Shown: positions 26,871 to 28,493 of the stretch, piece by piece
How the letters are laid out: every line of letters starts with the position of its first letter
Position numbering within the stretch: the stretch's first letter is position 1
Assembly (NCBI GenBank): GCA_017643685.1
Contig: JAEPMY010000015.1
Coordinates: 1-46,160 of the forward strand
Length of the DNA stretch: 46,160 bases
Direction: 5' to 3'
Origin: Sneathiella sp.
GTDB lineage: Bacteria; Pseudomonadota; Alphaproteobacteria; Sneathiellales; Sneathiellaceae
Made by a program: the position numbers and the translations under genes
The notes under the pieces: model-generated
Databases searched by the model: none
The model's input: the letters and a program-made list of their open reading frames with translations, nothing else
Told to the model about the DNA's origin: nothing

Positions 26871-28493
26871 ATGCGTGTCCTTCCTTCAAAGGCCTTGAGT
26901 CTTTTTTCCATCTGCTTTTGTGTTCTTTTCCTTAGCTTTGCGATGGCCGGAACCGCTAATGCCATGCAAATTTTCGTCAAAACACTAACGGGAAAGACCA
27001 TCACACTTGATGTGGAGTCAGGTGATTCCATTGAGAATGTGAAAGCAAAAATTCAGGATAAAGAGGGCATTCCCCCGGATCAGCAACGGCTGATTTTCGC
27101 AGGAAAAGAGCTAGAAGATGGGCGTACCCTTAACGATTATAATATTCAAAAAGAAAGCACGCTTCATCTCGTTCTCAGGTTGAGAGATGAGGCTGATGAA
27201 GGAAAAAAAGATAAGCAGGAACAAGCCGTTAATCAGGCCGCATCAAACACGCAGGTTGCTTTTAACGTAAAAACCGTCCGCTACCGGTTCCAGAAATTTA
27301 ATGCTGGCGGCGGCTTTTCAAGACCCGCGACCCCGAGCACCCCGACACCTGGCGGCCCAAGTGCGCCAACGAATTCTTCTGGCAATAACAGCGCAAATTT
27401 CACGTCTTTTTCGAACTCATATGATGACCATCATATGAAAACGGATTTGGCAAGCTTTGCCTCCCTAATATCCTTTGATACATCCGAAACACCCGTGGCA
27501 GAGACAACTGCATCCGGATCAAAAGCCGTCACCTCATCACCGCTCACCATTTGGGGGCAAGGCGGATATCTATCGCTGGAAAACGATCGCAATACCGCCA
27601 GCGAAGACAATCGCATGGATGGTCACGTCTGGGGATATAATCTAGGCGCAGATTATCGCCTCACCGATCAATGGCTAATGGGCCTGGCCCTTGGATATAC
27701 CACCACCGATGTAACAACTGATTTTAATGATGGAACCTATGAAGAGGATACCTTCTCGGTTCTGCCATACATCATGTATAAACCAACTGAGAATCTCTCC
27801 CTCTCCGCGGTGATGGGATACAGTATCGGACGAGTAGATCGGACGAAAGATGACACCGACACCGGAGATACTGATAGTGAAGGATGGTTTGCCAATCTTC
27901 GCGGCTCCTACGAGCATCAGTTTGAAGGCGTCCCCTTATCCTTAAAAGGTAAGATGGAATTTGAGGTGGGCCGCAAAACCCTGGATGCCTTTACCTATAG
28001 CGATGCAACCGCAGAAGCCAAATCCATCTCCGATACCCAGCGCCTCTCCCCCGGTGTGGAAATGGCCTATCGCTTTGATCTGGAAGATTTGCAGGTAGAG
28101 CCTTTTGGCGGCGTTGAGTATGTGTATGATTTTGGCGATACCATCAATGGGGACGAGGATGCGTATAACCTGTCAGCGGGTTTGCGCCTCAACTCCAAGG
28201 GATATGGGCTTTCCGGATCTTTGGTTGCGGAAAGAACAGTGGGTCGCGATGATTATCAGGAGTTCTCCATCTCTGGCCTGATCGCTTATGGCTGGCAAAT
28301 CGATGATCGCCGCGGCGATGCCCTTGGTATGGCGATGCCATTTATGAAATTTGACTTCGATGAAGAAGAAGGGGCTTACCTGAACACAGGCCTCAGTTTC
28401 AGAAATGCCATCGGTAATCTGTCCGCCGATTTAAACATCGGTCAGTCTGAAATCAGCACTTTTGGCGGCGCGAAGCTCACCCTCGCGTTTTAA
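26871..28493 (+). CDS. Ubiquitin-autotransporter fusion: exported eukaryotic-type ubiquitin on a beta-barrel
   Basis: 540 aa. Residues 1-31 are a Sec signal ending TANA; cleavage there leaves the Met that is Met1 of ubiquitin. Residues 32-107 align without gaps to human ubiquitin, 68 of 76 identical by eye (changes E16D, P19S, S20G, T22S, Q49E, S57N, G75D, G76E). K6, K11, K27, K29, K33, K48 and K63 and the L8-I44-V70 patch are kept; the C-terminal GG is lost. Residues 108-224 are a hydrophilic Lys/Gln then Ser/Pro/Thr/Asn-rich linker. Residues about 225-540 are an autotransporter (type Va-like) barrel, starting [11 protein letters not shown] and ending GGAKLTLAF with the terminal Phe used for outer-membrane assembly. 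ATG 26871 is chosen over TTG 26856; neither has a strong ribosome site. Predicted: surface-anchored ubiquitin that can be recognised, or serve as acceptor, but cannot be conjugated through its own C-terminus. No E1, E2, E3 or deubiquitinase gene is nearby. Confidence 0.93.

Follow-up and report, generated by a model that had tools for sequence, protein, structure and literature searches.

A ubiquitin-autotransporter fusion gene in Sneathiella and the recurrence of predicted exported ubiquitin in bacteria

The stretch analysed here, called the window, comprises 46,160 nucleotides of the Sneathiella sp. contig JAEPMY010000015.1 and holds a gene in which a ubiquitin domain is joined to an autotransporter barrel. 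The gene is one continuous open reading frame (ORF) on the forward strand, from the ATG at 26871 to the stop at 28493, and encodes 540 amino acids. An in-frame TTG lies upstream at 26856, and a scan for promoters and terminators gave no excess over shuffles. In the protein, Pfam detects ubiquitin (PF00240, E 3e-30, residues 34-105) and an autotransporter barrel (PF03797, E 1e-26, residues 228-428; 94.6 bits, with a cut-off of 26). Residues 32-105 match PDB ubiquitin without gaps at an i-Evalue of 7e-36, and the match is therefore not due to chance. The leader of 31 residues has a net charge of +2 over its first eight residues, a hydrophobic core (best 12-residue mean hydropathy 2.7) and an A-x-A ending, T-A-N-A, directly before Met1 of ubiquitin; in charge, hydropathy and ending it agrees with the predicted Sec signal of type Va autotransporters. 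The final residue is Phe540. An earlier reading, made from the letters alone (the sequence-only reading), had proposed a signal cut after TANA to leave Met1, a ubiquitin, a linker and a barrel ending in Phe, and the single frame, both domains and the predicted cleavage site bear this out (Table 1).

Table 1. Features of the fusion gene and the borders of the interval that holds it
Feature	Position	Strand	Basis
tRNA-Arg(CCG), bounding the interval of the ubiquitin gene on the left	26599..26675	-	gene mapping
Sec-type signal peptide (31 aa); predicted cleavage after TANA, ubiquitin Met1 then first	26871..26963	+	sequence, charge, hydropathy; helix 8-23 in model
Ubiquitin head, 76 positions, 68 as in human, G75-G76 replaced by D-E	26964..27191	+	Pfam, PDB match, alignment, model
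Predicted long helix, residues 107-144, corresponding to the pre-barrel helix of type Va autotransporters	27189..27302	+	structure model, structural alignment
Pro/Gly/Ser-rich spacer, residues 145-224, conserved SFDTS motif	27303..27542	+	alignment; mostly pLDDT under 50
12-strand autotransporter barrel, residues 225-474	27543..28292	+	Pfam, structure model
Extra C-terminal part, about 4 further predicted strands, ends in Phe	28293..28490	+	query-anchored alignment; pLDDT ~49-67
Amidohydrolase gene, bounding the interval on the right, in 23/24 genus genomes	28804..29997	-	gene mapping

The head (residues 32-107) was aligned to human ubiquitin and is identical to it at 68 of 76 positions (89%) without gaps, the same count as in the sequence-only reading. 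All seven lysines are retained, together with L8, I44, H68 and V70 and the arginines R42, R72 and R74. As had also been read, the terminal Gly-Gly is gone and positions 75-76 are D-E, which excludes a conjugation donor role for the window protein. A free product of 76 amino acids is not encoded, as the same frame continues through the helix, spacer and barrel. Matches to PF00179 (E2) are absent from all 24 genomes of the genus, but none were found in control genomes either. The capture of a ubiquitin gene from a eukaryote, proposed in the sequence-only reading, is likely. The GC content at third codon positions of the ubiquitin part is 0.42; of 323 overlapping windows (15 genes of the stretch), 3% have a value as low or lower, a weak sign of foreign origin.

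Structure prediction, which the sequence-only reading had called for, gave a confident ubiquitin fold, a helix before the barrel, and 12 strands over residues 225-472 followed by about four more. The head is modelled at a predicted local distance difference test score (pLDDT) of about 90-95, and its root-mean-square deviation from PDB ubiquitins is 0.5-0.8 for most of the listed ubiquitin entries, with exceptions at 1.0-1.4 and one at 10.7. The helix reaches a pLDDT of 79-87 over residues 111-140. Structural alignments of the predicted model to NalP, EspP and EstA take in residues of this helix, and the aligned ranges start at NalP 786 and EspP 996. An earlier model built from 4 rows had a mean pLDDT of 47.8, was too weak and was set aside.

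Among the 24 genomes of the genus searched, the window genome included, the complete fusion is present in four: the window genome, G015 (86%), G012 (61%) and G004 (61%). In G015 it lies on a contig of 1.4 Mb and in G012 on a single contig of 3.94 Mb. Because the fusion is intact in these three relatives, it is not an assembly artefact, a danger that the sequence-only reading had itself named. The genomic site was compared by mapping the window genes onto 14 stretches from 14 other genomes of the genus. Across these 15 genomes, the site between tRNA-Arg(CCG) and the core amidohydrolase gene is occupied by the fusion gene in three (the window genome, G015 and G012), empty in eight, where the interval measures only about 370-490 bases (G001, G011, G014, G021, G003, G018, G022 and G023), and filled with other genes in three (G005, G009 and G019), while in G004 the fusion gene is found at a different place in the genome. 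An amidohydrolase tree of 22 genus genomes unites G012 and G004 as sisters (100/97). The G012 barrel is nearer to the window barrel (proportion of nonsynonymous differences, pN, 0.188) than to the G004 barrel (0.283), and this conflict with the tree hints at transfer inside the genus.

An integrative element of 10.4 kb (16165-26648) adjoins the tRNA-Arg; 53 nt of the 3' end of this tRNA gene are repeated at 16165-16217 and 26596-26648 (91%). The element carries a phage-type integrase gene (16294-17511), an HNH gene (18415-19338) and an IetA/IetS-like pair of AAA and subtilase genes (22649-26169). The ubiquitin gene begins about 200 bases past the tRNA-Arg, beyond the element, and was ruled out as its cargo since it lies outside the repeats. 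Among 50,697 phage records no match was obtained, and of the viral contigs three stretches fit the whole-protein pattern, none of which encodes a relative. Plasmids were rejected as a vehicle with matches in just two of 72,556 records: Ruminococcus albus 7, where the gene is publicly annotated as 'ubiquitin family protein', and a weaker Pseudoalteromonas match at 36% identity.

The ubiquitin sequence is under strong constraint in part of the genus. In the comparison with G015, the ratio of nonsynonymous to synonymous substitution rates (dN/dS) is 0.064 for ubiquitin, 0.052 for the barrel, 0.19 for the linker (residues 106-220) and 0.41 for the signal. In the comparison with G004, synonymous sites in ubiquitin are near saturation (proportion of synonymous differences, pS, 0.87), with pN values of 0.083 for ubiquitin and 0.255 for the barrel. 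The heads of the window genome, G015 and G004 keep 65-68 of the 76 human residues and all seven lysines. The low dN/dS, and the low pN despite near-saturated pS, therefore indicate that the eukaryotic sequence is tightly held in these three genomes.

A search with the barrel profile gave matches in 61 of the 385 sampled genomes of the class. The closest barrels outside the genus, by far, belong to five genes of one genome (G288; E 3e-87 to 1.4e-74), one of them interrupted by a contig end. Their proteins have a signal-like start and then, as judged by eye, about 100-150 residues of a different N-terminal region, followed by a related linker and the extended barrel; in a query-anchored alignment, the extra C-terminal part is also present in the full-length ones. 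No ubiquitin is visible in them, and Pfam, run on four, gives barrel models only. More distant members (G316, G393 and G239) lack a head and have a short linker between a signal-like start and the barrel. From these other N-terminal regions and headless proteins it follows that ubiquitin sits in a module slot.

To our knowledge, ubiquitin has been treated as nearly absent from bacteria. Over the Pfam cut-off it was found in five of the 385 class genomes (six at E ≤ 0.001) and in two of 398 sampled genomes of the phylum, one of them weak (26.6 bits). The rarity stated in the sequence-only reading thus holds per genome, but the recurrence of the fused architecture was understated. Besides the window genome, G012 and G015, the five include G189, which encodes a signal-ubiquitin-barrel protein of 401 amino acids in which Pfam detects ubiquitin only and the iterated profile also detects the barrel, and G365 (L093), where a signal-ubiquitin ORF (1435-1740) is followed by a PF03797 barrel ORF in a different frame (1781-2593), either a split pair or a broken fusion.

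A pattern scan of contigs from 84,980 species yielded 565 matches; a relative is encoded by 464 of them, and the best 80 of these 464 loci were analysed. A signal-like hydrophobic segment is present at most 30 residues before ubiquitin in 65 of the 80 loci (66 ORFs, which form the basis of the following counts). The residue preceding Met1 is A in 53, G in nine, C in two and S in two. Gly-Gly is retained in only six, while L8 and H68 are found in all 66, I44 in 64 (V in two), K48 in 64 and K63 in 65. The other 15 loci, with 20 ORFs, fall outside the signal count; among them are L054, which has a short leader at the ORF start and a PF03797 barrel, L013, and L010, whose 4 kb contig encodes a polyubiquitin with four copies and is probably eukaryotic contamination. 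Nine loci are titled as strains, neither as metagenome-assembled genomes nor as uncultured (L022, L023, L026, L038, L057, L064, L065, L072 and L077), and all nine have the signal-like segment; therefore, contamination does not explain the class.

Several loci differ in other ways. In Dyella sp. OK004 (L023, 5863-6228), a signal precedes a ubiquitin whose last residues are exactly LRLRGG, so that a free ubiquitin with its tail intact is predicted to be exported. Neighbouring genes each with a ubiquitin domain occur in L069 (5342-6480), L020, L073, L081 and L043. In L020, L073, L081 and L047 no clear signal is seen and the C termini end in FTG. Ubiquitin heads on proteins of over 1,000 amino acids were found in Clostridia bins (L018, L030, L084 and L087); L018 and L030 carry GLUG, and L030 also Ig-like repeats.

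The carriers were counted from the 25 commonest families listed for the 66 ORFs. PF03797 is found in 13, so that the search for ubiquitin with PF03797, suggested in the sequence-only reading, places the fusion beyond the window genome. Other carriers are Dockerin_1 (eight), GLUG (five), Por_Secre_tail (three), IPTL-CTERM (three, or four by NCBIfam), Flg_new (three), SdrD_B (two), SpaA (two) and SLH (one). In L013, a Euryarchaeota SP3059 bin, ubiquitin lies within a protein bearing an archaeal type IV pilin N terminus (Pilin_N; 5635-6429). For the barrels, a tree of 44 sequences was inferred after three of 47 rows had been dropped (the second ORF of L027, L160 and L040). The ubiquitin label changes five times in it (4-5 in bootstrap trees), and the starred branches force two changes. 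A single clade of all ubiquitin barrels is disfavoured (approximately unbiased test, p 0.0148), in a test with long branches that was run after inspection of the tree and on a set that depends on the sequences fetched. This is read as ubiquitin having been joined to barrels more than once, the number being uncertain. The similar ubiquitin heads on other predicted exported proteins suggest that bacteria have repeatedly made eukaryotic ubiquitin a surface part.

The frame, domains, site, selection, recurrence and predicted fold described above are supported by computational tools; from them we infer cleavage, surface exposure, a binding partner and a benefit. The window protein would be a small type Va autotransporter with a non-conjugable ubiquitin as passenger. 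Its hydrophobic signal would direct the chain through Sec, by way of the signal recognition particle because ubiquitin folds fast, and signal peptidase would cleave at TANA|M. The barrel would then insert in the outer membrane, with helix 107-144 occupying the pore and ubiquitin retained on the outside of the cell. The slot at the N terminus would be an exchangeable module, the nearest barrels bearing other regions or none. Display at the surface is probable, since the predicted helix, the different N-terminal regions that the nearest barrels carry in this position and the recurrent joining to surface-attachment parts all support it; that display is the purpose is argued most strongly by the recurrent mounting on different carriers. 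The displayed head would most likely serve as a ligand that is bound by ubiquitin-binding proteins of eukaryotes in contact with the cell, such as protist grazers or invertebrate hosts, its eukaryotic surface having been retained and the conjugation-donor tail removed. This reading as a whole is offered tentatively, at slightly less than an even chance. According to a review, ubiquitin 1-74, without Gly-Gly, binds CXCR4 without activating it, and CXCR4 as a ubiquitin receptor is disputed (PMC10892293).

Several observations speak against a displayed ligand of eukaryotes. The G012 head (L003), with 39 of 76 residues identical to human, has F, T, R and D at positions 8, 44, 68 and 70, so that the I44 patch is lost, lacks K6, K27 and K48 (three of seven lysines), and has changed more than its barrel (pN to the window protein 0.32 vs 0.19). 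The G015 head has L8Q. These losses count against a single, uniform host-ligand role. The interpretation in the sequence-only reading is supported in part: its architecture and residue-level points hold, and the engagement of host proteins stays conjectural. The window genome and G015 are close relatives, so they give few independent data on the patch. The 66 ORFs, coming from the best 80 of 464 loci, were found via conserved peptides, and their conservation is partly built in; at least 37 of them have none of five attachment parts (barrel, dockerin, type IX secretion system (T9SS) tail, IPTL-CTERM, SLH), which cover at most 29. Autotransport might stall on a domain that is stable and folds fast. 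Ankyrin counts show no special host adaptation: an ankyrin-rich intracellular lifestyle was rejected, with PF12796 in 24 of 24 genus genomes and five of 14 controls, and two matches in one ORF of the window genome.

Some of these points would fit a structural cap or spacer, in which the ubiquitin fold provides a small, very stable and soluble head with no surface partner. The slot accepts various N-terminal regions, and in G012 the patch is lost but the core is kept, with no change at 13 of 15 listed core positions and mild changes, M1F and I30V, at the other two. Against it stand the near-human residues and seven lysines retained in the window genome, G015 and G004 despite near-saturated synonymous sites (window vs G004), and the same eukaryotic sequence on different carriers; this explanation is rather unlikely. 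It is improbable that the head, displayed or shed, harms competitors as the Bacteroides fragilis ubiquitin BfUbb does: according to PMC5705921, BfUbb, which has a signal and lacks the terminal glycine, is inhibitory to other strains of B. fragilis, but bovine ubiquitin, equal to the human one that the window head resembles, does not, and the window ubiquitin is tethered to a barrel. Placement of the head in the periplasm, with the helix not threaded outward, is similarly doubtful. It would be suited by the loose stretch of about 75 residues between the helix and strand 1 and by the four extra strands, which make the barrel unusual, but in NalP, EstA and EspP the equivalent helix region is the one to which the helix aligns, and some carriers elsewhere are surface-attachment modules. 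An acceptor or decoy, on whose lysines host ligases build chains or which binds ligases or deubiquitinases without product, is very unlikely: the seven lysines of the window protein, G015 and G004 and the L-R-G-G before the L066 barrel, a possible deubiquitinase site, would allow it, but it requires contact with cytosolic enzymes, the ankyrin counts, the sole indicator of intracellular life checked, are ordinary, and G012 lacks three of the lysines.

In these results, bacterial ubiquitin is rare per genome but recurrent; in most cases a predicted export signal precedes it, and it is often fused to parts for surface attachment. It is conceivable, and held with somewhat less than even confidence, that several phyla, perhaps with one archaeon, repeatedly captured ubiquitin, added a signal and dropped Gly-Gly, using it as a displayed ligand on the lineage's own anchor (barrel, dockerin, IPTL-type tail, T9SS tail, S-layer or pilin). 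If true, these surface proteins would form a convergent and so far undescribed class that addresses eukaryotic ubiquitin-binding proteins outside the cell or in the phagosome. If displayed, such proteins offer a natural experiment on the function of extracellular ubiquitin, with G012 as a natural patch-less variant for comparison. Among the matches listed from open-access PubMed Central (PMC) titles and abstracts, no ubiquitin-autotransporter and no ubiquitin fused to bacterial surface anchors was found, and the available portions of PMC11354881, PMC3482391 and PMC10892293 tell of no such fusion. Within this literature, the architecture and its recurrence appear undescribed.

Among known systems, BfUbb shares with the window protein a eukaryotic-type ubiquitin, a bacterial signal exactly before Met1, the lack of a C-terminal Gly-Gly and a patchy presence among strains; it inhibited ubiquitination in vitro (PMC3352274, PMC5705921), and its producers may need no immunity gene (PMC5705921). 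BfUbb is free, secreted, 63% identical to human ubiquitin and antibacterial, whereas the window ubiquitin is closer to human and fused to a barrel. The secreted ubiquitin of the plant nematode Globodera, as described in PMC5705921, likewise combines a signal, ubiquitin and a C-terminal extension, but it is eukaryotic and released, and its extension is a peptide of 12 amino acids. The other signal-plus-ubiquitin proteins (with dockerin, IPTL-CTERM, T9SS tail, SLH or pilin-like parts) also carry ubiquitin at the exported end, mostly without Gly-Gly, and differ in having other anchors, other lineages and no barrel. In classical autotransporters, a short turn joins the helix and strand 1. With the type Va proteins NalP, EspP, EstA and AIDA-I, the window protein has in common a signal, an N-terminal passenger, a pre-barrel helix, a 12-strand barrel and a terminal Phe, and it differs from them in a passenger that consists of one ubiquitin, a long and loose stretch between the helix and strand 1, and about four extra C-terminal strands.
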